From: Crossiella cryophila
GTDB taxonomy: Bacteria; Actinomycetota; Actinomycetes; Mycobacteriales; Pseudonocardiaceae
Reading direction: 5' to 3'
DNA: 64,000 nucleotides
Assembly: GCF_014204915.1 (NCBI RefSeq)
Contig: NZ_JACHMH010000001.1
Location: 2,728,001-2,792,000 of the forward strand
In this document: in pieces, positions 44,413 through 64,000 of the stretch
Position numbering within the stretch: the stretch's first letter is position 1
Layout of the letters: the number at the start of each line of letters is the position of its first letter
The notes under the pieces: generated by a model
Databases searched by the model: none
What the model was told of the DNA's origin: nothing
Seen by the model: the letters and a program-made list of their open reading frames with translations, nothing else
Made by a program: the position numbers and the translations under genes

Positions 44413-44413
44413 C

Positions 44414-44872: not shown

Positions 44873-44884
44873 GACGTTCCTTCC

Positions 44885-47516: not shown

Positions 47517-50500
47517 ATGCGAGGAGCTGGGTTTTGCCTGCTCGAGCCGGAAGTTCACTCGTTGAACAGCGCAGACCGTCGTGAGGTTGATCAAGCGGTG
47601 GAAACCACAGCTCTGTCCGTTCTGCAGGTCGTTCTCGAGCAGTCGAAGCGAGTTCTCGAGACATATCGGATCGATCCCGGGCTCATCCGCGAGCACGCGA
47701 ACGCCGAACGCCGCATCACGCAGGGTGGTTATGGTGACCGGCAGATCTACGAGCTGGTACAGAACGGTGCTGATGAGCTGAGACAGGAGTATCACGAGTC
47801 CGCTCGGCAGGTCGGTGGGGAGATCGCCGTCGTGCTGACGAAGTCGCACCTGTACTGCGCGAATCAGGGTAGCCCGATCACTCCGGAGGGCACCGACGTC
47901 ATCCTTCGCATGAGCTCGTCTCGCAAGCGAGGTGGCCAGATCGGTCGCTTCGGGGTCGGGGTCAAGTCGGTGCTCAGCGTCTCCGACTCGCCGGAGTTCT
48001 TCAGCGCCACCGGCTCGTTCGGATTCGACAAGGAATGGTCCGCATCGCGCATCCGAGAGGTTCAGCCCGAGGTCGATGACGTTCCAGTGCTCCGTATGGC
48101 CCGCCCGATCAGTCAGGAACGCGCGGTCGAAACCGATGGCGTGTTGGCCGGCCTGCTGAAATGGGCCACGACCGTGGTGCGCCTCCCCCTGCAGCCGCGG
48201 GCAGTGAACGGACTGGCTCGTGACCTGGCCACCTTTCCTGCCGAGTTCTTGCTGTTCTCCCCGCATGTCGGCACGGTGACTCTGGAGGATCGCCGCACCA
48301 GCGTGGTGGTACGGCGCCAGATCTTTCAACGCAGCGAGGGCGACCGGCGTGCGCTTGAAGAGCAATCGGCGAATGGGGCGAGTTCGACCTCGTATTGGCG
48401 AGTGTTCTCCCGTGTGCATCGGCCTACCGACTCCGCGCTGGAAGCGGCCGGTGAACTGCACGATCGCCCCGAGATCGACATCGCCTGGGCGGTGCCGGAC
48501 CGACTCGGTCGGGACAACAAGCTCGGGGAGTTCTGGGCATATTTCCCCACCAAGTACAAGACCACTCTGCGCGGGATTGTCAACGCTCCGTGGAAGACGA
48601 GCGAGGACCGGCAAAATCTGTACGGCGGCAACGAGTTCAACCGCGAGCTGATCAGAGTCATGGCAGACCTGGTCGTCGACTCCCTGCAGGCGTTGACCCG
48701 CGACGTCGATCCGGCTGCCTATCTGGACGCCACTCCCGCCCGTGGCCGGGAAGAGCCGCAATGGGCATCCGACCAGCTCGTCAGCGCGGTGTGGGTGGCC
48801 ACCACCTCGAAGCCTTCGCTGCCGGATCAACACGGCCGGTTGCGGATCCCGGCGGAGGTTCGGCTTCACCCGGCCGATCTCAAACGTGAGTGGCTCGAAC
48901 TGTGGCGGAACTACGACGGGCGACCGATTGACTGGGTACACCACTCGGTGGACAGCAGCCGGATGCGCCGGGCGAGTGCGGAGCTGATCTGCAACACGGC
49001 CACAGTGCCGATCGCCTCGGTCCGGGAATGGCTCGAAGCTCTTGCACAGGACGGGACTCCTGCAGCTTCAGCGACTGCGTTGCGGATCGCGGCCGACATG
49101 GTGCGTGGCAAGGACATGGCTGCCGACGAAGCGCAGAAGGCCCGCATTCTTCTGACCGAGTCGCATGGACTGGTCGCACCGGTCCGCGGCCAGGTCTTCC
49201 GGCGGGTGTCCGATGACTCCCTCGCCGACTCGAATGTCTACGTGGACGACCGGGTGACGGTGGAGTTCGGTGTTACCAGTGCCCTGGACACACTGGGCAT
49301 CCACGAGGCCGATGCGGCAGGTCGCTTCGCCGCCGTGGTCGATCAGGGCTTCGCCGACTACGACGATCAGCGGTGGACCGAGTTGTGGATGCTTTCCAGG
49401 AAAGCCGGACTGGACACGGTGCTGACGGTTCTGCGGGGAACTGGTGAGGACCCTCGGCGATTTGTGCACGTGCGTACGGTTTCGGGGCGATACCGCCGAC
49501 TGGGCGACTGCCTGTTGCCAGGCGTGGTGGTGCCGGGTGACGGTACTCGGGACGACACCATCGCGGTCGATCTCCGTTTCCACGGACCGGATCGTTCGGT
49601 TCTGCGTGATCTCGGCCTGATCGACACCCCTCGCAACAGCGTGGACCCGACCGGAGAGGCGTGGTTCGGCAGCTACGTTGAGGAATGTTGGAACCGGCAC
49701 CTGGAGACGTTGCCAACGGAAGCGCCTCGGGTTCAGCTGCGCAACGTCAAGGTGTCCGGCACAAATCCACCAGGGCCGTTGCACCTGCTGACCGAGCTGT
49801 CCGAGGAAGGACGAGCGGAGTTCCTCAAGGCCCTACCAAGGGCCAGCCTGATTTCACAGTGGAACTACTACGCAGGCGGCCAGCAGGTAGTGCGTCGCAC
49901 GGTTGCCTCGCCGATGGTGTGGATGGCGCGCAAACACGGTCGGCTGCACACCTCGAAGGGTGTGGTGCCGCTGGCCAGAGCCGTCAGCCCCGCATTGGTC
50001 GCCTACTCCGACTTCTTCCCGGTGGCGGACCTGCCGATCATCACGGCCGAATCGCTTCGCCTGCCCGATGACATGGCCGCCTTGCCGGAGCGGTTCTGGA
50101 CATCGCTTCTGGCAGAGGTTGCCGTGAGCGAGGACGACGAGTTTCCGGGCCGGGCCTACGACCTGCTGTTCCGATTCGACGTCGAACTGTCCGAGTCGAT
50201 CGGCAACACCCGGTGTCGGGTTGGCGCAAAGTGGACGAACGACCGCCCCGACAACGAGATCGCGGTGACGGCCGAGCGCAAGGAGTACGACCTGCTCGTT
50301 GCGGAAGAAGTGCCCGCGATCCTCGTGCCGTCCGAAGAGACCGCGCAGCTCATGATGGCGAACTGGGGATTGCTCGACCCGGGGGACGTGGTCGAGAAGG
50401 AATTCCGGTACGTGGAGCAAGCTGAGCCGCTCCTGCTGACGGACGAGTTTCCACCCCTCAAACTGATGGGGCGAAACAAGATCGAGGGCTGGTCGCTGGT

Positions 50501-52283
50501 GCGGTGCAGCGAGCTCGAGGAGATCACGCACACGCCCAACGGCGTACGGACAGAGTCGATCCCGTCCGCAGTCAAGGACAGGCGGGTGCTCGTGCTGAAT
50601 CCGCCGGAGGACCTGACTGCGCTGCGAGTCGTCGACCGCGTGCTCAAGCTCGGGCTGGGTGAGGGCGGCTGCCAGGAAGTCATCAGGAAGCGGCAGAAGG
50701 CACGGGACGACAACAAGATCAAGGAAGTAAGGGCGGCACCGACGGTGCCGGACAAGGCGGTCCGGTTGTTCCAGCCAGAACAGCTGAAGCGGCAGCTTCC
50801 CGACGGACTGGTGGACTACGCGGCGGCGGAGGCCGGCCAAGAGCCGGATCACCACAGGCTGGCCGAACTCGCGGTTGCCGCCCACGGCGACCAACTGTTG
50901 CACCAGCACGTCAAGGATCTGGAAGAGCGCCTACCTGGAAGTGGCCGTTCTTTCAGGGGTGACAGTGCTTCCCGTCAACTGGTGAGTGATCTTCAGTTCC
51001 CGGACTCCTTCGCTGGGGTCCAGACGGCTCAGACCAGGAGTGCCACCGAGACCGTCAGCGGCCCGACTCCGTACCCGGCATTGCACGACTACCAGGAGCG
51101 TCTGGCTCGGAACATGTTCGAGCTGCTGACGACGCCGGCTCCGCAGCGGGGAATGTTGTGCCTGCCCACCGGTGCGGGCAAGACGAGAATCGCAGCCGAG
51201 TCGGTGATCCGGGTCATCAAGGAGCGCGGTCTCGAGGGCAAACCGGTGCTGTGGATCGCCCAGACCGACGAGCTGTGCGAGCAGGCCGTGCAGAGCTGGA
51301 TGTTCGTGTGGGGCAAGGTCGGTCCAGAGGAACGTCTCACGGTCAGCAGGCTGTGGTCGAGCAACGAGGCCGTCGCGGTGACCACTAACGCACACCTCGT
51401 GGTTGCCACTGATGCGAAGCTGCACCGATGCCTGGCGGCCTCCCGCTACGCCTGGTTGCGTGATGCCGCGCTGGTTGTGGTGGACGAAGCACATGTCTCG
51501 ACCAACGACACCTACACGAAGCTTTTCCGAGAACTCGGCCTCACCTCGCACTCGAACGCACGTCCGCTGGTCGGCCTGACCGCTACCCCGTTCCGCGGCA
51601 ACAACGATGTCGAGACTCGAAAGCTCGTCGACCGGTATGAGGGCCGCAGACTGGACGCGGGCGTCTTCGATGCTGATCCTTACACTTCATTGCAGTCGCT
51701 CGGGATGTTGGCCCAGGTCGAACATCGGGAATTGGCAGGCACGACTCTCCAGCTGACTGAGGACGAACTGCAGAAGTTGGCCCTGCCGTTTCAGCACAAC
51801 CTGCCGAGCACGGCCGAACGGCGCCTGTCCGGCAACAGCGAGCGCAACCGGATGCTGGTTGCCGAGATCGAGCGTTTGCCGAGGGACTGGCCGGTGCTGT
51901 TGTTCGCCACCTCGGTCAACCATGCCAAGCTGATGGCGGCGATCCTCAACGACAAGGGGATCAAGGCAGCCGCGTTGGAAAGTTCCACTCCGGCCGCGCA
52001 ACGATGGAAGATCGTCGAGGACTACCGCGAACGGAAGATCCAAGTGATCACCAACTACGGTGTGTTGGCCCAGGGATTCGACGCGCCGGCGACCCGGGTC
52101 GTCATTGTGGCTCGCCCGACCTACAGCCCGAATGTGTACACCCAGATGATCGGTCGCGGCCTGCGCGGTCCGAAGAACGGCGGAAAGGACACCTGTCTGA
52201 TCCTGGACGTTCGGGACAACATCACCAACTACCGCAGTGCCCTTGCATTTACCGGATTTGAGCACCTCTGGAGCCGCGGATGA
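47517..52283 (+). CDS. GHKL/sacsin-type ATPase fused to SF2 helicase
   Basis: A 1588-residue protein. Near residues 60-170 is a GHKL ATPase fold: the N-box in DRQIYELVQNGADE, LYCANQGSPI as the next nucleotide motif and IGRFGVGVKSVLSVSD as the Gly lid, as in sacsin-like proteins. About 1000 residues without recognised motifs follow. The C-terminal ~400 residues are an SF2 helicase: CLPTGAGKT near 1212-1220, VVDEAHVS, GLTATPFRG and QMIGRGLRG. ATG 47517 lacks a clear ribosome site; TTG 47562 after GGAAG is possible. Codon use is less GC-biased than in the core genes. It overlaps the next gene by four bases. Confidence 0.85.
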   Translation: MRGAGFCLLEPEVHSLNSADRREVDQAVETTALSVLQVVLEQSKRVLETYRIDPGLIREHANAERRITQGGYGDRQIYELVQNGADELRQEYHESARQVGGEIAVVLTKSHLYCANQGSPITPEGTDVILRMSSSRKRGGQIGRFGVGVKSVLSVSDSPEFFSATGSFGFDKEWSASRIREVQPEVDDVPVLRMARPISQERAVETDGVLAGLLKWATTVVRLPLQPRAVNGLARDLATFPAEFLLFSPHVGTVTLEDRRTSVVVRRQIFQRSEGDRRALEEQSANGASSTSYWRVFSRVHRPTDSALEAAGELHDRPEIDIAWAVPDRLGRDNKLGEFWAYFPTKYKTTLRGIVNAPWKTSEDRQNLYGGNEFNRELIRVMADLVVDSLQALTRDVDPAAYLDATPARGREEPQWASDQLVSAVWVATTSKPSLPDQHGRLRIPAEVRLHPADLKREWLELWRNYDGRPIDWVHHSVDSSRMRRASAELICNTATVPIASVREWLEALAQDGTPAASATALRIAADMVRGKDMAADEAQKARILLTESHGLVAPVRGQVFRRVSDDSLADSNVYVDDRVTVEFGVTSALDTLGIHEADAAGRFAAVVDQGFADYDDQRWTELWMLSRKAGLDTVLTVLRGTGEDPRRFVHVRTVSGRYRRLGDCLLPGVVVPGDGTRDDTIAVDLRFHGPDRSVLRDLGLIDTPRNSVDPTGEAWFGSYVEECWNRHLETLPTEAPRVQLRNVKVSGTNPPGPLHLLTELSEEGRAEFLKALPRASLISQWNYYAGGQQVVRRTVASPMVWMARKHGRLHTSKGVVPLARAVSPALVAYSDFFPVADLPIITAESLRLPDDMAALPERFWTSLLAEVAVSEDDEFPGRAYDLLFRFDVELSESIGNTRCRVGAKWTNDRPDNEIAVTAERKEYDLLVAEEVPAILVPSEETAQLMMANWGLLDPGDVVEKEFRYVEQAEPLLLTDEFPPLKLMGRNKIEGWSLVRCSELEEITHTPNGVRTESIPSAVKDRRVLVLNPPEDLTALRVVDRVLKLGLGEGGCQEVIRKRQKARDDNKIKEVRAAPTVPDKAVRLFQPEQLKRQLPDGLVDYAAAEAGQEPDHHRLAELAVAAHGDQLLHQHVKDLEERLPGSGRSFRGDSASRQLVSDLQFPDSFAGVQTAQTRSATETVSGPTPYPALHDYQERLARNMFELLTTPAPQRGMLCLPTGAGKTRIAAESVIRVIKERGLEGKPVLWIAQTDELCEQAVQSWMFVWGKVGPEERLTVSRLWSSNEAVAVTTNAHLVVATDAKLHRCLAASRYAWLRDAALVVVDEAHVSTNDTYTKLFRELGLTSHSNARPLVGLTATPFRGNNDVETRKLVDRYEGRRLDAGVFDADPYTSLQSLGMLAQVEHRELAGTTLQLTEDELQKLALPFQHNLPSTAERRLSGNSERNRMLVAEIERLPRDWPVLLFATSVNHAKLMAAILNDKGIKAAALESSTPAAQRWKIVEDYRERKIQVITNYGVLAQGFDAPATRVVIVARPTYSPNVYTQMIGRGLRGPKNGGKDTCLILDVRDNITNYRSALAFTGFEHLWSRG

Positions 52284-54154
52284 GGGTGGCGGAGAAGCCA
52301 TTCGGTCTGCTCACCACCGAGCAGCGCGCAGTTGTGGACTTGCCGGTGGAAACCCGGGCGCTGGTGACTGCGGGACCGGGAGCGGGCAAGACACACACGT
52401 TGGTGCGACGGCTGGAAATGTTGGTCGACGACGGTGAGGCGACGGCAGGAGATCTCCTAGTACTGACCTTCTCTCGTGCCGCTGTACGGGAGCTGCGCGC
52501 CAGACTCGCTCGGCACGGCCAGGCCGCGCGATATGTGCGCGTGCACACCTTCGACGCGTGGGCATTGGAACTGCTGACCACGGTTCGAGGCGAGGTGGAC
52601 TGGCGGATCCAGCCCTTCGATGCCCGGATCCGCGCCGCGGCAGCAGCCATCCAAATTGGGGAGGCTGATGACTTTTGCGAGGAACTCGGGCACGTCGCGA
52701 TCGACGAGTTCCAGGATCTGGTGGGGGAACGAAGGGTGATGGTCGAGTCGTTGCTCGACCGCTTCGATTGCGGTTTCACCGTTGTCGGCGATCCGGCTCA
52801 GGCGATCTATGGATTTCAAATCCGAAACCTGGTGGAGCGTGCTGCGGAGAACGGTCGCTTCGCTGCATGGCTGCGCGAGATTTTTGCCGATGAACTCGTC
52901 GAACTTGCGTTGACCGAGAACTTTCGGGTTCGGTATCCGGAGGCTGAGGGCGCATTGTCGTTCGGCACGCGCCTCCGCAGCAACGGGGGCGACGGCAAGA
53001 TGCTCCGCCGAGGTCTGCACAGCATGCTTCGCGGCACCATGCCGTTGGAATCGCTCAGTGGACAGTTCGAGCGCGCCATGTTGTCGGCCGAGGGCGTAAC
53101 CACGGCCGTGCTCTGCCGGACCAACGGACATGCGCTGCTGGTTTCGGAGGAGCTGCATGATGCAGGTATCCGGCACCGGTTGCAGCGATCGGCGGTCGAC
53201 CAGGTAGTGCCTGCCTGGATCGGGAGGCTGATGTCGACTGTCCGGAGCACCACGATCACGCGCGCAGAGTTCGATCGTCGTCTGCCCGAGTTGCCCTTCG
53301 GATCGGATGACGATCCCGAATTGCTGTGGGACTGGTTGGTCCGAGCCACTGCGGCCGGCCGTGGCACCAGAGCAGTCGACCTGTCGATCCTGCGTGTGCG
53401 GATGGCAGGCGGGATGCTGCCGGACGAATTGGTCGAGCAGCCGTCGACGAACTTGGTCGTTTCCTCCTATCACCGTGCCAAGGGCCTCGAATTCGATCGG
53501 GTGATCGTCGCCGATCCGGGAATGGGCAGGGAGGAGTCCGACGCCGAGTCGGCCGATGAGGCACGCATGTTGTTCGTCGCCCTCACCAGGGCGCGTGACG
53601 ACGTGGCCTGGATCGAAACACCTGCTTACCCGAACGGTCGGGTTTGCAAGGACACAGTCAGCACGCGGTGGGTGAAGGTCGGCTGGGATCGCAGGCAGCG
53701 CCATGGCATGGAGATCCGGGGTGACGATGTGTCCGGAGATGATCCACCCGGAACGGTGGATTTCACGGCCGACTGTCCGGATCTGCAGGTCTACCTGATG
53801 AACAAGGTCCGCCCGGGAGATGAGGTGGTGTTGGAACGTCTGCACGATCTGCCGTTGGGGGACAAGGAGAGTCCGCCTTACCTGGTGCTGCACCACGGCC
53901 GCGCGATCGCCACCACCTCGCGCAGATTCCGGCTGGATATCCGGCGGTTTCTGCAGACAGGTGCGTATGGCGGCGAACCGACATGGCCACGCAGGCTGGA
54001 ACGAGTCCGGGTCGACGCGATCGAGGCGGTCTGCGGTAGCGAGGCCACAGGCGTCGAAGCGGGCCTTGGCCCACACGGAGTGTGGCTCGTTCCGAAGTTG
54101 GTCGGTCTGAGCTCCTTTGTCTACGGCGGCCACTCCAGTCTGGGAGATCTGTGA
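52280..54154 (+). CDS. UvrD/Rep-like SF1 helicase
   Basis: A 624-residue SF1A helicase. Walker A TAGPGAGKT is at 30-38, motif II AIDEFQD at about 140, GDPAQAIYGFQ is motif III, then LTENFRVRYPEA, the SYHRAKGLEFDRVIVAD motif V and MLFVALTRARDDV motif VI. It is shorter than UvrD because the 1B/2B insertions are reduced. A C-terminal extension of about 140 residues (KVRPGDEVVLERL onward) has no recognised domain. The start ATG overlaps the preceding stop (ATGA), and the stop TGATG overlaps the DrmA-like start. It should unwind or translocate on single-stranded DNA. Confidence 0.9.
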   Translation: MRVAEKPFGLLTTEQRAVVDLPVETRALVTAGPGAGKTHTLVRRLEMLVDDGEATAGDLLVLTFSRAAVRELRARLARHGQAARYVRVHTFDAWALELLTTVRGEVDWRIQPFDARIRAAAAAIQIGEADDFCEELGHVAIDEFQDLVGERRVMVESLLDRFDCGFTVVGDPAQAIYGFQIRNLVERAAENGRFAAWLREIFADELVELALTENFRVRYPEAEGALSFGTRLRSNGGDGKMLRRGLHSMLRGTMPLESLSGQFERAMLSAEGVTTAVLCRTNGHALLVSEELHDAGIRHRLQRSAVDQVVPAWIGRLMSTVRSTTITRAEFDRRLPELPFGSDDDPELLWDWLVRATAAGRGTRAVDLSILRVRMAGGMLPDELVEQPSTNLVVSSYHRAKGLEFDRVIVADPGMGREESDAESADEARMLFVALTRARDDVAWIETPAYPNGRVCKDTVSTRWVKVGWDRRQRHGMEIRGDDVSGDDPPGTVDFTADCPDLQVYLMNKVRPGDEVVLERLHDLPLGDKESPPYLVLHHGRAIATTSRRFRLDIRRFLQTGAYGGEPTWPRRLERVRVDAIEAVCGSEATGVEAGLGPHGVWLVPKLVGLSSFVYGGHSSLGDL

Positions 54155-57100
54155 TGTCCAGGTACGACGAGCACTACACCTTTCGCGACCAGATGCGTGA
54201 TGGACTGCGTCGAGACCTCTTCGGGCCGGTGGACAAGGAGGACGACGAGGAGATCGTCAATGATCCTCCTGCAACCACCTATGTGACCGGGATTCTCTTC
54301 CCGGTGCGCGAGCAGCGACAGCACACTGCCGAGACCGACGTCGACCTGTCGTCCGTGGCCGTGCTGCCGGGTGATGTGGACGAAGTGGTCGACACCGGCG
54401 TTGCCATGGCCAATGTGCAAGCTCCGTCCTCGATGGGACTGACCTTTGCCGTCGATTGCGAGGTGTCCTCGGCACTGACGATCGAGGTCACCGTCGCTTC
54501 GTATGATCCGATCGGGCCCGACGGCAACCGAGTCGAGGCGAAGCGCTCGACGCGGGGTGCCACCGGTGAGGACGACATCCGGTGGCGGCGCGTGCCTGTT
54601 CCTGCCTTCTCCACCACGCTGGATCTGGCAGACGCGCCGGATCGTGTGTCTGTTGTAGACAAACGTCTGGAATGCAGACTTCGGGTGCGGAAACCGAAGG
54701 ACGGCACGGTTTCCATCACAGTCACCCTGATCAACATCACCAAGATTCCCGAAAACGGACTTCACGACGAGCACTGCTTCTGCCAGGCTGGGATCACCGT
54801 GCGCGGTGCAATTGTTCAGCGCCCGGGGCCTGGTGGGGGTGACGAGGACGAGGTGATCGGGAGCAGGCTCCTGCACCGGTACGCGCCCACGTTCGCCGTT
54901 GGCCACGGATGCTCAGTCGAGTGGGATTGGACTCCGCCTGCACCTGCGGAACTTGTCGGAGTGGATGAGCGTGACATCACCGTGCCGGAGGTTCGAACCA
55001 CGTTCGTGCCGTCGCACGACGTGTTGCTCACCGATTCCAACACCGAAATCGACAGCAGATCGCTGATGATGCGCGAGCTGGCCAGGGCGGACAGGCAGGA
55101 TCTGGTCGAGACGCTGAATCGGTTGGCAGCGGCTTACGGGGACTGGATCGAGGAACGGCGGACTGACGCAACCCGACTCTCGACGGAGTCCTTCCGCGTT
55201 CGTGCTGGCGAACACCTCGATCGATGTGTCGAAGCGAAGCGGCGCATTGAGAGCGGCATCCGCCTCCTGCGCTCGAATGCCGAGGCATACAAGGCTTTCC
55301 AGCTCGCCAACGAGGCGATGGCACTGCAGCGGGGTCGGACAGTCTGGATCAAGGGCGGCCGAAACGGCGAACCGGTATACAACGGGAGATGGCGGCCGTT
55401 CCAGATCGCGTTCATGCTGCAATGCCTGGACGGAATCGTCGATCCCGAGCACGACGACCGGAAGCTGGTCGATCTGTTGTGGTTCCCGACCGGTGGTGGA
55501 AAGACCGAGGCGTATCTAGGACTCATCGCCTTTACCGTCTTTCTTCGCAGGCTGCGTAGAGGGGCTGCGGGAGAAGGCGTCACGGCGATCATGCGGTACA
55601 CGCTCAGGCTGCTCACCCTGCAGCAGTTCGAGCGTGCAGCAGCACTGATCTGCGCCATGGAGCAGATCCGCCGTCGGAACGAGCGCAGGCTCGGCACGAC
55701 ACCCATCTCTCTGGGCATGTGGGTGGGACAGTCGGCAACGCCCAACTCGTTGAAGGATGCCAAGGCTGCGCTGAAGAAGCTCGAGACAAACCCCGATCTG
55801 AACGAGAAGAACCCGGTCCAGCTGCATGCCTGTCCCTGGTGTGGAACGAAGATGGACCACCGCAACTACGTCGTCGACGTCGAGCACGACAACATGCGGA
55901 TCTTCTGCGGAAGGCCGGACTGCCCTTACCGAGATGCGTTGCCCGTCCACGTCGTGGACGAGATGGTTTACCGCGAACACCCCACTCTGATCATCGCCAC
56001 CTCCGACAAGTTCGCTCGGCTGCCGTGGCGGGAAGACGTGGCGAGCTTGTTCAACTGCGACATCGAAGACGGGTTGCCACCGGAACTGATCGTGCAGGAC
56101 GAACTGCACCTGATCTCCGGCCCGCTCGGCAGTCTGGCCGGCCTCTACGAGACGGCCATCGACGAAATTGCGAAGCGGCCGAAGGTGATCGCATCGACCG
56201 CGACAATCCGGCGAGCACGTGAACAGGCTCTGCACCTGTTCGACCGAGAGGTCGCGCAGTTCCCGCCACCGGGGCTCGATGCCCGTGATTCGTGGTTCGC
56301 CGTGGAGACCCCCTCCGCGGACAAGGCAAACCGTCGGTATGTCGGCCTGCTCGCGCCGAACACCAGCCAGGCCACCTTGTTGGTACGGGTCTACGCGGCG
56401 CTGCTCGACCGCGCGGCCAGGAACGAAGGCAAGGACTCGGTCCGGGACGCCTACTGGACTTTGGTCGGCTACTTCAACAGCCTCCGCCTGTTGGCGGCGG
56501 CTGAACTTCAGGTCCACGCCGACGTTCGGGAACGACTGGGGCAGCTCGTCAACGAGTCGGAGCAGGATGCCCGGCCCGTGGATGCTGTCATCGAGCTGAC
56601 CAGCCGGATCAAGTCCACCCAGGTGCCCAAGCACCTCAAGCAACTGGAACAGGAACTGCCCGACGACGATGTGCTGGACGTTGTGCTTGCCACCAACATG
56701 ATCTCAGTCGGTGTGGACGTCGATCGACTCGGCCTGATGGCAATCATGGGACAACCGCAGACAACGGCCGAGTACATCCAGGCGAGCAGCAGAGTGGGGC
56801 GATCCCACCCCGGCATGGTGGTGACCCTGCTCAACGCGGCTCGATCCCGAGACCGCTCTCACTACGAGAATTTCGCCTCTTACCACTCGGCGCTCTACCG
56901 GACGGTGGAGTCCACCAGCGTCACCCCGTTCTCCGCGCGCGCCAGAGACCGCGGCCTGCACGCAGTGGTGGTGGGCATGGCCCGGTTGCTGCACAAGGAA
57001 CTGCGGCCGAATGACGCGGCCGCCGACATCGATCGGTACCCGTCGAAACTGGAAGAGGTCAAAGACCTGATTCTCAACCGGGTGCAACGGGTCGCCAAGG

Positions 57101-57333
57101 ACGAGTACGAGAGCACCGAAGCGCAGATCGACGACATCATCGACTGGTGGCGTGGCCTGGCGATCTGCAACAGCGACTTGAAGTACGAGGCGCCTCCGCG
57201 GCAGGACACGGCACGAGGGCCCTACGACGCCCTCCTCCGGAACTACACCGACGAGGACCTGACCGAGGCATTCCCCACCCTGTGGAGTCTGCGTGACGTC
57301 GACGCCGAGACCCGTCTTTTCCTGGAGCGATGA
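54154..57333 (+). CDS. drmA: DrmA-like helicase (DISARM core)
   Basis: A 1059-residue helicase of the DISARM DrmA family. The N-terminal ~430 residues carry no motif I can name. Walker A WFPTGGGKTEAYLG is at about 444, a zinc site (CPWCGTK...CGRPDCPYRD) at about 560, the DEAD-box variant QDELHLISGPLG near 648, and motifs V-VI are TNMISVGVDVDRLG and QASSRVGRSHPGMVV. In DISARM, DrmA forms a complex with DrmB that loads on incoming DNA. ATG 54154 has GGGAG upstream and overlaps the UvrD stop by one base. Its stop overlaps the drmB start. Confidence 0.9.
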   Translation: MSRYDEHYTFRDQMRDGLRRDLFGPVDKEDDEEIVNDPPATTYVTGILFPVREQRQHTAETDVDLSSVAVLPGDVDEVVDTGVAMANVQAPSSMGLTFAVDCEVSSALTIEVTVASYDPIGPDGNRVEAKRSTRGATGEDDIRWRRVPVPAFSTTLDLADAPDRVSVVDKRLECRLRVRKPKDGTVSITVTLINITKIPENGLHDEHCFCQAGITVRGAIVQRPGPGGGDEDEVIGSRLLHRYAPTFAVGHGCSVEWDWTPPAPAELVGVDERDITVPEVRTTFVPSHDVLLTDSNTEIDSRSLMMRELARADRQDLVETLNRLAAAYGDWIEERRTDATRLSTESFRVRAGEHLDRCVEAKRRIESGIRLLRSNAEAYKAFQLANEAMALQRGRTVWIKGGRNGEPVYNGRWRPFQIAFMLQCLDGIVDPEHDDRKLVDLLWFPTGGGKTEAYLGLIAFTVFLRRLRRGAAGEGVTAIMRYTLRLLTLQQFERAAALICAMEQIRRRNERRLGTTPISLGMWVGQSATPNSLKDAKAALKKLETNPDLNEKNPVQLHACPWCGTKMDHRNYVVDVEHDNMRIFCGRPDCPYRDALPVHVVDEMVYREHPTLIIATSDKFARLPWREDVASLFNCDIEDGLPPELIVQDELHLISGPLGSLAGLYETAIDEIAKRPKVIASTATIRRAREQALHLFDREVAQFPPPGLDARDSWFAVETPSADKANRRYVGLLAPNTSQATLLVRVYAALLDRAARNEGKDSVRDAYWTLVGYFNSLRLLAAAELQVHADVRERLGQLVNESEQDARPVDAVIELTSRIKSTQVPKHLKQLEQELPDDDVLDVVLATNMISVGVDVDRLGLMAIMGQPQTTAEYIQASSRVGRSHPGMVVTLLNAARSRDRSHYENFASYHSALYRTVESTSVTPFSARARDRGLHAVVVGMARLLHKELRPNDAAADIDRYPSKLEEVKDLILNRVQRVAKDEYESTEAQIDDIIDWWRGLAICNSDLKYEAPPRQDTARGPYDALLRNYTDEDLTEAFPTLWSLRDVDAETRLFLER

Positions 57334-59186
57334 GCATGGCCTTGCGTAAACCCCCGCAGAACCGGCCGTTCGGCCCCGCCCGCACCGCGTCGAACACGAA
57401 GGTGGGCAACGTTCGGCGTGGACAGGCTGTGACCACTTACGGAGTGGGCGCCATGATCGCGGTCGACGACCAGTCGTTCGTCGTCTGCGGCTTGGACGAC
57501 TGGAAGATCGGAGACGGCGCCGAACTGCGCGAACCGCGTCTGGAACGACGTTTGGGAGTTCAGCGGTTCCACATGCCGCCTGCGGACGAGACCCGGTACA
57601 ACCAGGGTGTCGGCGTCCGTCGATTCCCGACCATGTACTCCTGTCCTAGTCCTACGTGCCGCAAGCTCCAGGAGTACCGCAAGTTCGGGGCGACGCCGAC
57701 CAAGAACAAGTGCATCTGCGATCGCACCCTCGTACCGTCGAGGTTCGTGGTTGCCTGCGAGAACGGGCACCTGGACGACTTTCCGTACTGGGAGTGGGTC
57801 CATCACCAGAACGAGTCCCGATCGGGCCCGCACGACTTGCTGCTGTACAGCGATGGCCGATCGGCTTCGCTGCGGTCGGTCATCGTCGAGTGCTCCTGTG
57901 GGCACAAGCGTTCACTGGAGGGAGCTTTCGGCAAGAAGGCCCTCGACGGACTGGGCATCAGGTGTACGGGCAGGCGACCCTGGCTTGGCAAGGGGACGGA
58001 CCAGCCCGGGTGCATTGCCGCTCCCCGTGCCCTGCAACGAGGAGCCTCGGCGTCCTGGTTCGCGGTGGTTCGTTCGTCTCTGTCGATCCCGCCGTGGTCG
58101 AACACTCTGGACAAGCACGTGGCCAAGCACTTCCAGTATCTTGTCGGTTACCTGGAACTCGACCTGGCGACGGCGGTCAAGCTGATCAAGAGTACGCCCG
58201 TGGGCATGAACAACAAGTTCGACCCGGTGGAGATGCTCAAGGCCACGCGGCAGCGAAAGCAGTACGAAGAGGACGGCTCGCCCGATGCCGAATCCACGGC
58301 TGTGATCGAGGCGTTCAGTCAGTTCCGCATGGAGGAGTACCCGCACCTGCACTTCGGTACGGATGAGGCGCATGAAGGGGACGACTTCGAGTGCACCAGG
58401 CCAGGTGACTTCGGCACGGTGGCGCCGCCGACAGGCATCGAACGCAGCATGCTGGTCAAGCGGCTGCGTGAGGTCCGGGCCCTGCACACCTTCACCAGGG
58501 TCGCCCCACCCGGACCGGTGCCGGATCGGAGTCGATACGCCGCTCTCTCGAAAGAGCCCAAGGACTGGCTGCCCGCCATCGAGGTCAGCGGGGAGGGAGT
58601 TTTCCTCGCCATGGACTCCGAGCGGCTGCGGGAGTGGGAAGCGAAGCTGGCCGTTCGTGATCGTGCCGGGATCATGCAGGAGCACCACAACAGGGTGCTG
58701 CGCAACTCTGCCCGGTCTCTCGGCGATGACCGCTCCCCGGAGATCCTGGACTCGCCGATTTCGGCCCGATACGTGCTCCTGCACACGCTGGCGCATGCCC
58801 TGATCAATGAATGGAGTCTGGACGCCGGATATCCGGCAGCCTCGCTCCGAGAACGGATTTACGTCGCCGACCAGCACGCAGGACTGTTGATCTACACCGC
58901 CACCAGTGATTCTGCAGGCAGTCTCGGCGGCGTGGTAGCTCAGGGCGAACACAGCAGGCTGGCCGCGAGTCTGGCGTCGGCGATGGACCGACTCGCGTGG
59001 TGCTCGCAGGACCCGCCGTGCGCGGAGGCCGAGGCGGCGGGGACGGACAGCCTGAACCTGGCCGCCTGCTACGCCTGCGTGATGGTCCCGGAGAGCAGTT
59101 GTGAAACCAACAACAGCTTCCTGGACCGTGGGCTGCTGATCGGCACCGCAGGGCAACCGGAGGTCGGGTTCTTCTCTCGGACCTGA
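57330..59186 (+). CDS. drmB: DrmB-like DUF1998 protein (DISARM core)
   Basis: A 618-residue protein with the DrmB signature. The N-terminus has RRGQAVTTYGVGAMIAV and a Cys-rich segment (CPSPTCRK...CIC). The C-terminal DUF1998 part reads LLHTLAHALINEWS at about 485, then the Cys cluster CSQDPPCAEAEAAG, ACYACVMVPESSCE. It binds zinc and partners DrmA. ATG 57330 overlaps the drmA stop (ATGA), but ATG 57336 has better spacing from TGGAG. It is the last gene of the four-gene run. No DrmC or methyltransferase gene follows. Confidence 0.9.
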   Translation: MSMALRKPPQNRPFGPARTASNTKVGNVRRGQAVTTYGVGAMIAVDDQSFVVCGLDDWKIGDGAELREPRLERRLGVQRFHMPPADETRYNQGVGVRRFPTMYSCPSPTCRKLQEYRKFGATPTKNKCICDRTLVPSRFVVACENGHLDDFPYWEWVHHQNESRSGPHDLLLYSDGRSASLRSVIVECSCGHKRSLEGAFGKKALDGLGIRCTGRRPWLGKGTDQPGCIAAPRALQRGASASWFAVVRSSLSIPPWSNTLDKHVAKHFQYLVGYLELDLATAVKLIKSTPVGMNNKFDPVEMLKATRQRKQYEEDGSPDAESTAVIEAFSQFRMEEYPHLHFGTDEAHEGDDFECTRPGDFGTVAPPTGIERSMLVKRLREVRALHTFTRVAPPGPVPDRSRYAALSKEPKDWLPAIEVSGEGVFLAMDSERLREWEAKLAVRDRAGIMQEHHNRVLRNSARSLGDDRSPEILDSPISARYVLLHTLAHALINEWSLDAGYPAASLRERIYVADQHAGLLIYTATSDSAGSLGGVVAQGEHSRLAASLASAMDRLAWCSQDPPCAEAEAAGTDSLNLAACYACVMVPESSCETNNSFLDRGLLIGTAGQPEVGFFSRT

Positions 59187-59243
59187 TCGCAACCGATTCT
59201 TGGGGCGAGATCGAGGAGACGTCGTTCGGCAGGCTGATTCCGC

Positions 59244-59660
59244 TCAGCCTGCCGGCGGTTGTTCTGCAGCTCCCGCTGTTCCGCGGTCCGGATCAGCGGA
59301 CGTGACCAGGAGCTCCAACGCTTCGACGCAGGCGAGCCAGGCCGCCAACTCGGCGGGTGACGGAACGATCGAGGACTGTCTGCTGTGCAGGTAGTCGCTG
59401 CTCAGTCCATAGACCCTGTGCACCTGCCGGATCAGCCTGTCTGCGCGCGGACGGTCTTGCTGCGGGATCGACGAGAGCAGACCCCACAGCCGGAGTCGTA
59501 CTTTGTTGGTACCCGGGCCTGTCACCAGGAGTTCTGAAGGCGCCGACTTGATCAGATTTTCGATCCGCATCCGAAGTAGCAAGATCTGGCATCGGGCCCG
59601 CAACACGGCCGGAAGTTCGGCCATTGCTGCCTCCTGCCAGCCGTCTGCAGGTGTCCACAT
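59244..59660 (-). CDS. Small helical partner of the SMC-like ATPase, HEPN-like candidate
   Basis: A 138-residue, mostly helical protein, starting at ATG 59660 inside the preceding stop (TGATG). The segment RVYGLSSDYLHSRQSSIVP followed by a long helix resembles the C-terminal part of HEPN-type proteins, but the RxxxxH motif is not clear. The coupling means it is made together with the ATPase, so a subunit or effector role is likely. It is convergent with drmB, 57 bp away. I cannot assign a family. Confidence 0.6.
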   Translation of the reverse strand: MWTPADGWQEAAMAELPAVLRARCQILLLRMRIENLIKSAPSELLVTGPGTNKVRLRLWGLLSSIPQQDRPRADRLIRQVHRVYGLSSDYLHSRQSSIVPSPAELAAWLACVEALELLVTSADPDRGTAGAAEQPPAG

Positions 59661-62134
59661 CAGCGGTCCACCGTGCTGAGCAGGTCGATGCAGAATTTCT
59701 CGGCACGTTGTACCCGGTCAGCCAGGTGCCCGGCTATCGATTGCAGCGTTGTGGTATCGGCATGCGCGCCACCGTTCAGTTCATGCACGTAGCGTGGATC
59801 GAGTTTTTCCAACACAGGCTGGGCTGGGTGCCCTTCACCGGCAAGCCTCTTGGCCACGTCGATGGCCGCATTGGTGCTGAAGGCTCGATTCAGGCCCGCA
59901 AGAGCTGCTCGCGAATTGCCGGCCCGGTGCCCGTAGGCGAGTACGAATTCACGCAATGCGGCATCGATCGCCTGCCTGCAGAAGCCCAGCACCAGCAGGC
60001 CCGCGGAGGTGTCGGACAACACCAGGGAGCGGCCCGTGTTGTCGGTGTTGGACCGCAGTAGTGCACGTGCGTCCGCGATCAGCGGCTGCCAAGGGTGGGT
60101 GGCGTCGACCTGCTCGATGTTGCCTGCTTCATCTCGAGCGAGCTTGATCAGACACAGATCGGGCACGTGGTGCCGCAACATGTCGACCAGCTGTGTGTCG
60201 TGGGTCAGCAGTACGACCTGCCCGCCTGCCGCCGCGCGGCGAGTCACCAGTTCGGCGAAGATGTCGGTGCGGAACTCGTCGAAAGCGTGTACTGGATCGT
60301 CCAGGACCAGGAAACGGAACGGTCCGGCGTCGCTTACCCCCAGGACCAGGGCCAACACCAATGCGTTGTACTGGCCTGCGGAGAGCAGACCCATCCCGGT
60401 GTCCCGACCGTTCAAGGACAGTTGCAGGGTTGTCGTCTCGCCGAAGCCGTCGTGGTCGGAAGCGCCTGCAGTCAGCGTGAGGCCGCCGAACTGCACGTCG
60501 GCCAACAGTCGGTGCAGCTGTTCGTTCACTGCGCTCTGGACTGCGTTCCGGCGGTCGCCGTGTACCGCGTCGAAGGCATGGGCAACGCGGTCGAGTGCTT
60601 TGCGGTGGTCTTCCAGTCGGACCGCCGCCGCGCCGTGTTTCGTCTGCGCCTCGACCAGTGGGAGACAGCACCTGCGTCGGGCCGCCCGCCAATGCGCGAG
60701 TTCGTCGAAGACCGTGCCCAGCTTGGTCAGCACACTGTGTACCTGGTGATCGAATTCCTCGTCTTCGGCCACTGCACGCAGGGCTTGCCAGGCGCGATCG
60801 TGTTCCGACCGTGGACTCCTGTCGATCAACGGCTCGATCAGCGCACACAACCGGTCCGTCACTCCGTCCGTGTGCGCTATGCAGTCCGCGATCCGCAGCA
60901 GAGGAAGTAGCTTGTCGACCAGTAGCTCGCCCAGCGCGTGCAGTTCGGCTTGGGCCAGGTTGAACTCCTCCCGGACGAGTCGTAGATCGGCCACGGTGCT
61001 CCGAGCCTTGTCCGACCAATCCCCGGTCGCACCGCCGCAGATCGGGCACGGCCCCTTTTCGTGGGCGCTCAGGTGATCGAGGAGATCGCCCAGTGCAGAC
61101 AGTCCACCGCCGGACCAGAGTTCTTGGTTGCTTTGTGCCTGAGCCCGCTCGCTGCGGTTCAGCGCTGCCAGCGCCGATGCTCTCGCCTGCGCCACTTCAC
61201 GACTGAGTAGGCGATCAACCTCAACCGCCGACATCGATTCGGCTGTGGAACCGAAACAAGTAGAGAACCATGTCGCCACGTCTTCTGTAGGCGTCTCGGG
61301 CAGTTCGACTGCACGGGGTGCCCGAATCTCCGGGTATCGCCGGGCGAATTCTTCGTCCAACAGCTCGAGCGCGTCGGTGACCTCGCCGCGGACCCGGAGC
61401 CATTCGTCGTGCGCATGCAACGCGGCGTCGTGATCGGTCTTCAGCAGGTTCAGGACCTGCCACCAGACATCGCCGAGACTCAGAGTGTCTTGTACAAAGT
61501 CTGCGAGGCGGCCTCCTCTCAGTCGGTGCGCCAGGTGGTCGTAGCCGACCACCGGGCGTCGGGCGGCGACGGCTGCCGCCCAGACAGAGCCGGGAATTTC
61601 GCTGATGTCTTCCGGAGCGTCGTGTGAGTACCAGGTCACGGCTGTCTTCTCGACGCCCGCGGCCAGACGCCAGTTCAATCGAAGCCGGTCGCCTCGATCA
61701 TTATCGAGAATCACCAGCACGTCGGCACGTTCGGCGTCCGCGTGGAGCGCAGTCGGTCTGCGGGCGTCGGTCGAGTCGAATGCGGGGGAAAGTTTGATAC
61801 CACCGAAGAGGGCGACTTCGAGGGCATCGGTGATGGTCGATTTACCGGTGCCGTTCGGAGCGTGCACGACCACAACGCCAGCGGAGTTCGGCAGCTCCAA
61901 CCGGAATGGATCCGGGTAGGCGCCGTCCGGGTCGGTTCCGTTGGCTGCCCCACGAAAGCCGCTCACCTCAACGGAGCGCAGCGCCCACGGTCCGGCAGCC
62001 AGCGCGTCGAGCAGCACGTCCTCGTCGGTGTGGGCGCTTTCGCGGCAGCGACGCAGCACACCGCTGACGATCTCGTCGACGGCATCCGACACTCCGCCGG
62101 GCAGCAGTACCGCGTCGAGCTCTGCAACGGTCAT
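59660..62134 (-). CDS. Rad50/SMC-like ATPase with zinc hook
   Basis: An 824-residue ABC-type ATPase with its two halves separated by coiled coil. Walker A APNGTGKST is at 92-100. The hinge has CPICGG at about 363, a Rad50-type CxxC hook. The signature LSAGQ is at about 582, Walker B FLVLDDPVHAFDE near 608 and the H-loop LLTHD follows. A C-terminal helical tail of ~140 residues (with YVHELNGGAHAD) has no named domain. I use ATG 62134 (M-T-V-A-E-L-D); TTG 62191 would add 19 residues, and neither has a good ribosome site. It is coupled to the small gene downstream and divergent from the next helicase. Confidence 0.83.
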   Translation of the reverse strand: MTVAELDAVLLPGGVSDAVDEIVSGVLRRCRESAHTDEDVLLDALAAGPWALRSVEVSGFRGAANGTDPDGAYPDPFRLELPNSAGVVVVHAPNGTGKSTITDALEVALFGGIKLSPAFDSTDARRPTALHADAERADVLVILDNDRGDRLRLNWRLAAGVEKTAVTWYSHDAPEDISEIPGSVWAAAVAARRPVVGYDHLAHRLRGGRLADFVQDTLSLGDVWWQVLNLLKTDHDAALHAHDEWLRVRGEVTDALELLDEEFARRYPEIRAPRAVELPETPTEDVATWFSTCFGSTAESMSAVEVDRLLSREVAQARASALAALNRSERAQAQSNQELWSGGGLSALGDLLDHLSAHEKGPCPICGGATGDWSDKARSTVADLRLVREEFNLAQAELHALGELLVDKLLPLLRIADCIAHTDGVTDRLCALIEPLIDRSPRSEHDRAWQALRAVAEDEEFDHQVHSVLTKLGTVFDELAHWRAARRRCCLPLVEAQTKHGAAAVRLEDHRKALDRVAHAFDAVHGDRRNAVQSAVNEQLHRLLADVQFGGLTLTAGASDHDGFGETTTLQLSLNGRDTGMGLLSAGQYNALVLALVLGVSDAGPFRFLVLDDPVHAFDEFRTDIFAELVTRRAAAGGQVVLLTHDTQLVDMLRHHVPDLCLIKLARDEAGNIEQVDATHPWQPLIADARALLRSNTDNTGRSLVLSDTSAGLLVLGFCRQAIDAALREFVLAYGHRAGNSRAALAGLNRAFSTNAAIDVAKRLAGEGHPAQPVLEKLDPRYVHELNGGAHADTTTLQSIAGHLADRVQRAEKFCIDLLSTVDR

Positions 62135-62312
62135 GGCGGTGCGTGTGGTGCGGCGATCCTCGGATGAGTCGAACAAGACCGGCCCCCTCAATCACTGGCA
62201 ACCTAGCATTGCGACCGATTCGAGCCAGTGCGTGGTTCGCGACGGGGAGTGACCGGTAGGGTCGTTGGTTCGGGTGGGAAACAAGGGCGATGGACCAGGG
62301 GGCTGGACGCCG
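62135..62312. promoter_or_regulatory. Divergent promoter region between the SMC-like and UvrD-like genes
   Basis: 178 bp between the two opposite start codons. GAGGATCG near 62160 on the minus strand and GGGGG near 62298 on the plus strand are weak ribosome sites. No clear -35/-10 pair or palindrome could be assigned. Confidence 0.3.
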
Positions 62313-64000
62313 ATGGCCACGGTGGTGCTTGCGAAGGAACTCCAGAAAAACCTGGCGGTCGACGGATCACTCAAGCCGAGGGCATGGGACCTGCTCAGCA
62401 AACTCATGGCTGACCAGGACCTCACCGGCCTGGATCTCAAGATCCCGAAGGGGGCGCGGGATCCGCGAGTGCGGACCGCGCGGGTGACGGACAACCACCG
62501 TGCGGTGCTGTTCGCCATCGGTTCGGACGCCGATCAGTACTACCTGCTGGTCGCCATTCGGCCGCATGACGACGCTTACCGGTACGCCGCGCAGATCACC
62601 ACGCAGCTCAACCCGACCAACGGCGTCCTCGAAGTGCTGCGTGACCTCACGCCTGCTCCCCCGGTTCCTTTGGCACCTGAGCGCACCGTGGCCGACGATC
62701 GCCGCTTCCTGGTGCCGTTCCTGGCCGCCGAGCTGAAGAGCGTCGGCATCATGTCCGAACTTGCCGAGCGAGCTGTCCAGATCCGTGATGTGGACGAGCT
62801 GCTGAAACTCTGCGAGACCGCGCCCAGATGGCAGAGCAACGCACTGCTCGACCTCGCCGACGGCAAGTCTCTGGAAGAAGTGCGTTCGTCCTATTCACGC
62901 CCCGAGGGAAAGAGCGCACGCCAGGATGTCCCCACCGACGCGAGCAATCCGGATCAGCTACGCGATTCGCTCAGTCACTTCTCGTCGCGGATGGAGTTCG
63001 TCGTTGTCGAGGGTGACGAGCATCTGCGTCGCATGCTCCAGGGAGATTTCGCCGCCTGGCGACTGTTCCTGCATCCTGAACAGCGGCGGGTGGTCGAAAA
63101 GGACCGTAATGGCCCCTACCGGGTCACCGGTGGCGCGGGGACCGGTAAGACAATCGTCGCCCTGCACCGCGCGGCGGAACTCGCCAAGCGGAACCCCGCG
63201 GCCCGCGTGCTGCTCACCACGTTTACGAAGAATCTCGCCCACCAGCTCAAGGCGGGACTGAGGCACCTTGCTGACCCCGATACGTATGCGCGGATCGAAG
63301 TCTGCAACATAGACCAGCTGGTTCGAGATGTCGTGGGCAGGGCGACCGGGGATCGGCTCGCCATCCTGAGGGAGAAGGACGAACGCCGCTACTGGGAAAA
63401 TGCAGTGGCGAATGTCCCGGATCTCTCGGCCAAGGATCGTGCGGTATTCACCCCGTACTTCCTCGCAAGTGAGCACAAGCAGGTTGTGCTGGGCATGGCC
63501 AACCACGACAAGCACAAGTACCTGGAGGCGTATCGGCGAGGCCGAGTTTCGATCGACCCGAGCCAGAAGTTGCGGGTCTGGCGGATCGTCGATGAGTTCC
63601 GCAGGCTGCTGTCGGTGGACAAGTGCACCACCTGGGCGTTGACGGCGGCCAGAGCGGCGGCGATCGCGCAGTCTTCGGACCGACCGGTTGCCAACACGTA
63701 CGACCACGTGGTGGTGGACGAGGGGCAGGATCTCTCGCCTGCGCACTGGCGATTGCTGCGGGCCGTCGTGGCAAGCGGTCCCAATGACCTGTTCATCTGC
63801 GAAGATGCCCATCAGCGGATCTACGGCGAACGTGTGGTACTGAGCAAGCTCGGAATCGAGACCAGAGGCCGGTCGCAGCGACTCACATTGAACTACCGCA
63901 CTACGAAGCAGGTGCTGAAGTATGCGACCCAGGTGCTTGTAGGTGAGACCTTCCAGGATATGGAGGAGGAGGAAGAGTCAACCCGGCATTACAGGTCATT
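62313..64000 (+). CDS. UvrD-like helicase with RelE/ParE-like N-terminus, partial at right edge
   Basis: The frame is open from ATG 62313 to the window end, 562 complete codons, so the C-terminus is missing. Residues ~1-95 resemble a RelE/ParE/YafQ toxin fold: ARDPRVRTARVTDNHRAVLFAI, then YYLLVAIRPHDDAYRYA. After a linker of ~170 residues the helicase begins with Walker A VTGGAGTGKT at about 270, then TTFTKNLAHQL, motif II VVVDEGQDLSP near 467, ICEDAHQRIYG and LNYRTTKQ. The toxin-like catalytic residues cannot be judged by eye; the domain may only bind RNA or protein. It starts a divergent unit of the island. Confidence 0.87.
   Translation, partial: MATVVLAKELQKNLAVDGSLKPRAWDLLSKLMADQDLTGLDLKIPKGARDPRVRTARVTDNHRAVLFAIGSDADQYYLLVAIRPHDDAYRYAAQITTQLNPTNGVLEVLRDLTPAPPVPLAPERTVADDRRFLVPFLAAELKSVGIMSELAERAVQIRDVDELLKLCETAPRWQSNALLDLADGKSLEEVRSSYSRPEGKSARQDVPTDASNPDQLRDSLSHFSSRMEFVVVEGDEHLRRMLQGDFAAWRLFLHPEQRRVVEKDRNGPYRVTGGAGTGKTIVALHRAAELAKRNPAARVLLTTFTKNLAHQLKAGLRHLADPDTYARIEVCNIDQLVRDVVGRATGDRLAILREKDERRYWENAVANVPDLSAKDRAVFTPYFLASEHKQVVLGMANHDKHKYLEAYRRGRVSIDPSQKLRVWRIVDEFRRLLSVDKCTTWALTAARAAAIAQSSDRPVANTYDHVVVDEGQDLSPAHWRLLRAVVASGPNDLFICEDAHQRIYGERVVLSKLGIETRGRSQRLTLNYRTTKQVLKYATQVLVGETFQDMEEEEESTRHYRS

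Follow-up and report, generated by a model that had tools for sequence, protein, structure and literature searches.

Among the systems described so far, those closest to the locus reported here are DISARM, the MORC/paraMORC operons and the systems built on YprA-family helicases. According to PMC9252829, the PADLOC definitions of DISARM types I and II require, besides DrmA and DrmB, DrmC plus either DrmD or DrmE (DrmD with DrmMI, DrmE with DrmMII). A trigger loop keeps DrmAB autoinhibited and 5'-overhang DNA activates it, DrmC appears to be non-essential, and DISARM restricts phages without methylation sites (PMC9142583). GHKL proteins found with a superfamily 2 (SF2) helicase, a methylase and Vsr were proposed to serve in restriction-modification, in a manner compared with that of MutL and UvrD (Iyer, Abhiman and Aravind 2008; PMC2292703). 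We analyzed a 64,000-nucleotide stretch of the Crossiella cryophila genome (contig NZ_JACHMH010000001.1, positions 2,728,001 to 2,792,000), referred to as the window and numbered from its first letter, in which a giant GHKL-SF2 protein, a UvrD helicase, DrmA and DrmB are encoded at 47517-59186 on the + strand as one coupled operon. This operon probably represents the attack, or restriction, half of an actinobacterial defence system which derives from DISARM, resembles restriction-modification and comprises two cassettes. The genes are as follows.

47517..52283, + strand: gene 1, 1588-amino-acid GHKL (sacsin/TmtA-like) ATPase fused to a RadD/PbeA-like SF2 helicase (profiles, Foldseek, motifs)
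52280..54154, + strand: gene 2, 624-amino-acid UvrD-family helicase with a GajB-like core and a C-terminal domain without identification (profiles); overlaps gene 1 by ATGA
54154..57333, + strand: gene 3, drmA, YprA-family helicase (NCBIfam, PADLOC, structure 7s9v); overlaps gene 2 by TGATG
57330..59186, + strand: gene 4, drmB, DUF1998/MZB (NCBIfam, PADLOC, Pfam MZB); overlaps gene 3 by ATGA

The coding overlaps are located at 52280 (ATGA), 54152-54156 (TGATG) and 57330 (ATGA), and for drmA the ATG at 54154 is a more likely start than the alternative GTG at 54082. DrmA scored 1004.5 bits against NF038325 (cut-off 950), matched the PADLOC DrmA model with an E value of 2.2e-252 and aligned with the solved DrmA 7s9v at 595.6 bits (E 1.8e-177), while DrmB scored 473.4 bits against NF038324 (cut-off 240) and was also matched by PADLOC DrmB and Pfam MZB. 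The N-terminus of gene 1 is sacsin-like, with a profile E value of 1.6e-8 to a sacsin structure and a PADLOC TmtA match at 1.5e-44, and the 50 Foldseek matches listed for residues 1-1190 are all Hsp90-type folds; its C-terminus was identified as a RadD/PbeA-like SF2 helicase by PADLOC and NCBIfam profiles. Both the GHKL and the SF2 motif residues were invariant in an alignment of 21 sequences. With respect to gene 2, the AlphaFold model (mean pLDDT, the predicted local distance difference test score, 91.4) had UvrD, PcrA and Rep as its best fold matches. A first-pass annotation made from the sequence of the window had described adjacent, coupled DrmA-like and DrmB-like genes preceded in the same operon by a giant GHKL-SF2 protein and a UvrD-like helicase, and the overlaps, the domain matches and the passing of both NCBIfam cut-offs bear this out. 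All seven genes annotated between 47517 and 64493 are open reading frames at the positions first assigned to them.

The giant protein (P0001) was searched for in 397 genomes of the order; some match at 1e-20 was present in 55 of them and a full-length homologue in about 21. Twenty full-length loci from the order, of 18-20 kb each, were used (G221, split over two contigs, was left out), and the alignment of 21 giant-protein sequences served to scan the GTDB genomes, where at least 592 stretches matched and at least 530 encoded relatives by tblastn. Of these, 79 distinct loci, whose titles are all actinobacterial, were retained; hosts and neighbourhoods are known for these 79, and some of the other relatives may share single domains only. 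The combined 99 loci (79 GTDB and 20 order) are the best matches to the query and not a random sample, and they include one locus twice (L037/L110) and two same-genome pairs (L038/L045 and L101/L127). At 94 of the 99 the order GHKL-SF2, UvrD or NERD-helicase, DrmA, DrmB was preserved on one strand. As for the exceptions, L037/L110 is one locus with UvrD-DrmA-DrmB about 29 kb away, L068 and L069 end at contig ends, and L127 carries a GHKL-SF2 gene without DrmAB of its own. At 10 of the 99 the gene-2 slot matched NERD-helicases, and for one of these, P0015, Pfam verified a NERD-UvrD protein. Genes 1 to 4 form a single conserved unit which is inherited together and derives from DISARM. Chance adjacency of the four is rejected because the order is kept at 94 of 99 loci and the genes overlap; the possibility, raised in the first-pass annotation, that homologues of the 1588-residue protein might never occur with drmAB was thereby not realised.

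How this unit relates to DISARM was judged from gene content and from DrmA phylogeny. DrmA and DrmB of the PADLOC definition are both present. No DrmC was detected at the 99 loci by blastp at 1e-4 with three DrmC sequences, the sole method applied to the relatives and one which can miss distant phospholipase D proteins; in the genomic island which holds the operon and in the remote cassette described below, the best blastp match had an E value of 0.004 across 34 residues, and the open reading frames of at least 80 amino acids all lacked an HxKx4D motif. DrmD, DrmE and DrmM were absent from the PADLOC matches listed for the seven island proteins, which for the two UvrD-type helicases were the best 25 each, and in the relatives blastp with one sequence each gave DrmD at 1 of 99 and DrmM at 0 of 99 loci, DrmE not being searched there. 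These negatives refer to the loci named, no genome-wide search for DrmC, DrmE or N6 methyltransferases having been made. Because DrmC and DrmD or DrmE of the PADLOC definition were not found, the operon is not classed as DISARM; it derives from that system and may function in a similar manner.

In a quick tree of 61 chosen DrmA sequences, with support given by the Shimodaira-Hasegawa-like approximate likelihood ratio test (SH-aLRT) only, DrmA of the UvrD-type operons formed one clade (22 rows, support 100) and that of the NERD type another (11 rows, support 99). The DISARM sequences (L140, L199-L202) stood apart, yet within a larger group (support 98) which also holds the UvrD type, and L198, labelled 'other', fell among them. 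The DrmA studied here thus does not group with DrmA of canonical DISARM loci, of which L140 and L199-L201 carry DrmD and DrmM-like genes and L140 and L200-L202 a visible DrmC. Homologous, coupled DrmA and DrmB are shared with DISARM, as is association with a cytosine-5 methyltransferase, which recalls DrmMII (PMC9142583); the DISARM-like loci L200 and L201 of the order likewise carry Vsr and a cytosine methyltransferase homologue. The differences are the lack of a recognised DrmC, DrmD or DrmE in the operon, the GHKL-SF2 and UvrD genes upstream in their place, the separate DrmA clade and, in this genome, a locus without methyltransferase. Of the two readings offered by the first-pass annotation, a new DISARM-derived system is the better one for the operon.

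The MORC/paraMORC operons share with the present system a GHKL ATPase, an SF2 helicase, a cytosine methylase and a Vsr-type nuclease, and UvrD recalls the partner of MutL (PMC2292703). The loci of the relatives hold this set (GHKL ATPase and SF2 helicase with methylase and/or Vsr), and this genome holds it only across two loci, a comparison which rests on gene content and not on assignment of the GHKL subfamily. They differ in that DUF1998 is unmentioned in the accessible sections of PMC2292703 and in that GHKL and SF2 are here one protein, to which DrmAB and UvrD are added. A YprA-family helicase combined with other helicases is likewise a feature of ARMADA type II, Druantia and the wider YprA family (Bell et al. 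2025, preprint; PMC12458937). In ARMADA this helicase bears a Vsr nuclease domain and is accompanied by BrxHII-like and PglX-like genes, whereas the present locus encodes DrmA and DrmB in two genes, like DISARM, and its island contains no recognised DNA methyltransferase, the comparison having been made without an ARMADA-specific model. There is a partial likeness to TmtA, with matches covering the N-terminal third or less of the giant protein and not its SF2 part, and to PDC-M33, since the HTH-GHKL (helix-turn-helix GHKL) and DUF6339 proteins of the remote cassette match PDC-M33A (E 5e-23) and PDC-M33C (E 6.2e-8). We take TmtA to stand for Tiamat and the PDC of PDC-M33 to mean 'phage-defence candidate'. 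The literature search yielded no description of PDC-M33, of the four-gene operon or of the two-cassette locus.

The absence of a methyltransferase, which the first-pass annotation had put forward as a mark of the locus together with the absence of drmC, drmD and drmE, proved to be a local feature. No drmC, drmD or drmE was recognised beside drmAB by PADLOC or blastp, and the island does lack a recognised methyltransferase, but 88 of the 99 related loci have a cytosine-5 methyltransferase homologue in the flanks covered (75 of 79 GTDB and 13 of 20 order loci, most of the latter being covered for only about 5 kb upstream), and this genome carries its own about 611 kb from the operon. Vsr was found in the flanks of 70 of the 99 loci. 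The HTH-GHKL ATPase, a 325-amino-acid protein (p325) and a DUF6339 protein were each found at 71 loci and all three together at 70 (68 of 79 GTDB and 2 of 20 order loci). Alignment of the 166 methyltransferase open reading frames in the 88 loci gave 89 with the active PC motif, 65 with PR and 12 with another residue or a gap, including a few PS forms and cut reading frames. The PC form was present in 86 loci and the PR form in 61, all of which also had the PC form; both occurred at 60 of the 70 loci with the HTH-GHKL, p325 and DUF6339 trio. Non-PC methyltransferases, as represented by 69 homologues classed so by a narrower motif pattern, largely kept the GAGG and ENV motifs. Judged by these motifs, the PR form is a probable pseudo-methyltransferase which may still bind S-adenosylmethionine and DNA.

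In this genome (G000) PF00145 genes occur only at 2162.5-2164.6 kb, and these two genes in 10.06 Mb are the sole measure against which the chance of a methyltransferase neighbour was judged. They belong to a complete cassette at 2157.9-2164.7 kb, with Vsr, HTH-GHKL, p325, DUF6339, one PC and one PR methyltransferase, each confirmed by blastp or hidden Markov model over all open reading frames. The HTH-GHKL protein is 64% identical to that of L098, and the PR methyltransferase (P0009) has DruM2 as its best PADLOC model. On either flank, HTH-GHKL and then Vsr, the remote cassette can be aligned with L128, L103 and L036, and the four-gene block of about 12 kb which these loci hold in between is absent, 94 bp being left; L099 and L132 match on the HTH-GHKL side only. 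An HTH-GHKL protein at 1e-60 was present in 18 of 386 genomes of the family, which is taken as Pseudonocardiaceae because G076 clusters with Amycolatopsis, and in none of the 4 others of the genus. Eleven of the 18 also encode a P0001-type protein, adjacent in eight (about 0.4 kb), 7.8 kb away in G666, 12 kb away in G690 (L233), where the attack half is of the NERD type, and remote in the genome studied here. The remaining seven carry the cassette only; the seventh sits on a 3.9-kb contig, and the six readable ones (L225-L230) all contain Vsr, HTH-GHKL, p325, DUF6339 and two or three cytosine methyltransferase homologues. The modification cassette is therefore also autonomous and can adjoin different attack halves. 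Together with L149:7889-14663, these loci show the cassette in free-standing form in several genomes of the family.

If the two cassettes act jointly, the active methyltransferase would mark self DNA with 5-methylcytosine and Vsr would repair the T:G mismatches arising from it, in the manner of Dcm, which methylates cytosine, and Vsr, which corrects T:G mismatches. DrmAB may load on unmarked or 5'-overhang phage DNA, by analogy with DISARM, and the GHKL-SF2 protein could serve as an ATP-gated clamp coupled to a translocase which, together with UvrD, would strip or unwind the invading DNA. No nuclease was recognised among the four operon genes, nor was a hidden one present among the 50 Foldseek matches listed for residues 1-1190 of the giant protein, and cleavage would therefore be left to Vsr or to host nucleases, or replication might merely be blocked. 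The strain studied here would receive its methyl mark in trans, or its attack half would rely on DNA structure in place of a mark. We infer methyl-licensing, the clamp role, the role of the pseudo-enzyme and the identity of the nuclease as parts of this scheme. The loci define a widespread actinobacterial branch of DISARM-like immunity without a recognised DrmC, in which DrmAB is coupled to a GHKL-helicase of the Hsp90/sacsin type, and they make testable for DISARM the question of what cuts or blocks phage when there is no dedicated nuclease. The conserved change from PC to PR makes the second methyltransferase a probable bacterial pseudo-enzyme in an immune locus.

The joint inheritance of the halves was assessed at 66 linked loci. 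Distance matrices compared across halves correlated at 0.90-0.93 (GHKL-SF2 versus HTH-GHKL, 0.93) and those within a half at 0.94-0.97 (Mantel test, 499 permutations, p 0.002 each). In quick trees of chosen loci (35 of 99), GHKL-SF2 of this genome nested with seven Streptosporangiales (SH-aLRT 98, 36 rows), and its HTH-GHKL grouped with Pseudonocardiales, Nocardiaceae, some Streptomyces and one Hamadaea (SH-aLRT 99, 30 rows). On these trees the two halves in this genome seem to be of different origin. Movement of the remote cassette's own operon into the island was considered and rejected, since the halves fall in different clades.

Several observations weigh against a two-cassette system. The Mantel test ignores host phylogeny, which alone can give high correlations. 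The per-row correlation of this genome was -0.38, the lowest of 67, a mismatch of the halves in lineage, although two linked loci were also negative (L100, -0.29; L121, -0.22). Co-occurrence of unlinked halves is a single case, and about one such pair would be expected by chance from the frequencies of the modification half (18 of 386 in the family) and of the attack half (about 21 of 397 in the order), the latter being counted in the 18 family genomes with the modification half and in the order sample. In that order sample the methyltransferase was found at only 13 and the trio at only 2 of 20 loci, with about 5 kb upstream covered for most, and the cassette standing alone in six loci (L225-L230) may have a job of its own. 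On a Tsukamurella plasmid (L135:10220-27156), UvrD-DrmA-DrmB of the same DrmA clade is encoded with no GHKL-SF2 in the stretch. Finally, the defence role itself is predicted from sequence, and no experiment backs it. Action of the halves in trans is put forward only as a hypothesis, because a few hundred genomes would be expected to yield about one unlinked pair by chance. We also entertain, tentatively and with considerable doubt, a modular form of immunity in which a DrmAB attack cassette and a cassette for both methylation and sensing, with a conserved, catalytically dead cytosine methyltransferase, can be mixed between lineages and act in trans from distant places on the chromosome. This strain would then combine, as a natural hybrid, an attack half of Streptosporangiales type with a modification half of Pseudonocardiaceae type, and the pseudo-methyltransferase would read target sites, leave them unmarked and in this manner license or restrain the attack. 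A genome with unlinked halves of different origin would offer a natural test of restriction and modification modules in trans.

The attack half might instead be self-sufficient, with DrmAB sensing DNA structure (free 5' ends, single-stranded DNA) and needing no mark, in which case the remote cassette would be an unrelated orphan modification or regulatory locus. We hold this to be possible though rather unlikely. It would agree with the activation of DrmAB by 5'-overhang DNA and the restriction by DISARM of phages without methylation sites (PMC9142583), with the remote-type cassettes alone in other genomes (L225-L230) and with the 11 of 99 loci which have no methyltransferase in the flanks covered; yet a methyltransferase homologue has been retained close to the operon at 88 of 99 loci, linked halves are co-inherited (r 0.90-0.93), and among the 11 exceptions contig ends truncate L037/L110 (one locus) and L090, while L038, L041, L045, L049, L050 and L053 are covered for only about 5 kb upstream. 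The differing lineages of the halves, and the alignment of the remote cassette with L128, L103 and L036 around a missing four-gene block of about 12 kb, would also be expected of two unrelated remnants, a native system having lost its attack half and a foreign attack half having arrived without partners, so that neither works. The island does look immobile, with no distal attachment repeat and no recognised integrase. A long decay is made less likely by the genes of both halves, which are all open and keep the motifs examined (gene 1, gene 2, HTH-GHKL and the methyltransferases), and the island, being absent from the related genome G456, is probably a recent gain; we judge this account to be improbable.

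Compared with these, an ordinary DISARM variant with drmC and a methyltransferase just outside the window has a very slim chance of being correct. DrmA and DrmB do pass the DISARM models, but the island ends at about 65641, no DrmC was matched by blastp (1e-4) in the 99 loci, the match in the island and remote cassette is at chance level, and DrmA falls outside the clade of L140 and L199-L202. The sequence beyond 64000, which the first-pass annotation had singled out as the place where drmC or a methyltransferase might lie, contains up to the end of the island only the end of a helicase gene and a 194-amino-acid open reading frame without a Pfam match, and neither was recognised there. That several defence genes came together in the island by chance is the least probable account of the whole; for the four-gene operon it is contradicted by the order at 94 of 99 loci and by the coding overlaps, and it fits only the genes which follow the operon, namely the SMC-like pair (0 of 99 loci) and, largely, the last helicase (11 of 99). 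The operon as attack half of a two-cassette system is the reading we favour.

The other features of the island are as follows.

47159..47235, + strand: tRNA-Met (CAT), bounding the island on the left; the attachment-like repeat of the hotspot consists of its final 40-45 bases (ARAGORN)
59244..59660, - strand: 138-amino-acid partner of the SMC-like gene, in the island and outside the conserved operon (no family match)
59660..62191, - strand: 843-amino-acid SMC/Rad50-like ATPase with an internal CPICGG, in the island and outside the conserved operon (Pfam, PADLOC)
62265..63998 in the window, ending at 64493 (L003:5493), + strand: second UvrD-like helicase, 742 amino acids in full, possibly an optional neighbour (profiles)

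The island is low in GC and extends from the tRNA-Met (47159-47235) beyond the end of the window to about 65641. GC content per kb is 0.62-0.65 at 47-64 kb versus 0.69-0.73 in the preceding three kb, and it is back to about 0.70 from L003:8500 onward. Four other genomes of the genus were available, and the three with a close homologue (73-88% identity) of the right-flank gene were compared. G456 is 96% identical over 40001-47234 (the tRNA-Met 3' end) and 94% identical from 65642 on, and it has 3.7 kb in place of the 18.4 kb of the island. An exact 40-base copy of the tRNA 3' end (ending at 47234) is repeated beyond the tRNA in G456 and G424 (L244, L246), and the stretch of G443 (L245) contains an isolated 45-base copy with no tRNA within that stretch. 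The tRNA-Met site was thus seen as an integration hotspot, with short cargo between tRNA-Met and a second 40-base copy in two genomes of the same genus. In the genome studied here nothing longer than 12 bases was found as a duplicated attachment site in the stretches searched, and no integrase was recognised in the island. Because it is absent from G456, the island is probably a recent gain at the tRNA-Met hotspot, now without a recognised integrase or distal repeat.

A zinc-hook SMC-like ATPase, its small partner and a further UvrD-like helicase had also been annotated next to the operon; all three are open, and the CPICGG motif was confirmed. For the ATPase, Pfam SMC_N (E 1.4e-8) remained below its cut-off, AAA_23 exceeded its own, and the PADLOC LmuB match was weak (E 2e-13). 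The 138-amino-acid partner was without match among the models of Pfam (E 0.01), PADLOC and NCBIfam (E 0.001). Neither gene had a blastp match (1e-8) at any of the 99 loci of the relatives, and a plasmid search with the ATPase was without match; the pair was accordingly rejected as part of the operon system and is treated as a neighbour, possibly an independent two-gene defence unit (59244-62191). Lamassu pairs an LmuA effector with LmuB, and the ATPase was not assigned to it, the LmuB match being weak and LmuA being absent from the PADLOC matches listed for the seven proteins. A relative of the last helicase was found at 11 of 99 loci (two of these being one locus), downstream of DrmB in seven of the 99 (L040, L046, L056, L059, L093, L120, L130). 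The suggestion that several systems lie side by side therefore holds for these flanking genes. A RelE-like N-terminus had been proposed for this helicase from its resemblance to ArmD, a RelE-GajB fusion (PMC12458937), and found no support from Pfam or from phmmer against the PDB.

Some further DrmAB loci were noted. Among other DrmAB loci of the order (L185-L196), a NERD-helicase gene precedes DrmA in 11 of 12 (L185-L188 and L190-L196, not L189), a cytosine methyltransferase homologue is present at 9 of 12 and Vsr at 6 of 12. The plasmid loci L139, L141 and L143 have DrmAB near a cytosine-5 methyltransferase and/or Vsr, and the pairing of 5-methylcytosine and Vsr may recur widely among DrmAB systems. 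Rhizobium and Azospirillum plasmids carry UvrD, DrmA and DrmB plus a NERD gene. Downstream of DrmB, L135 encodes a DEAD helicase, a 'subunit M' protein and a Zn-binding-domain protein, and these by resemblance look like a joined ARMADA-type cluster; a relative of this DEAD helicase follows DrmB in L044 and L045. This genome also holds a second, very distant DrmA/DrmB-like pair (31% and 26% identity) at about 1902600-1908000 of G000:C1 (L204:9625-14957), with two large open reading frames upstream and a DrmA which is the longest branch of the DrmA tree.

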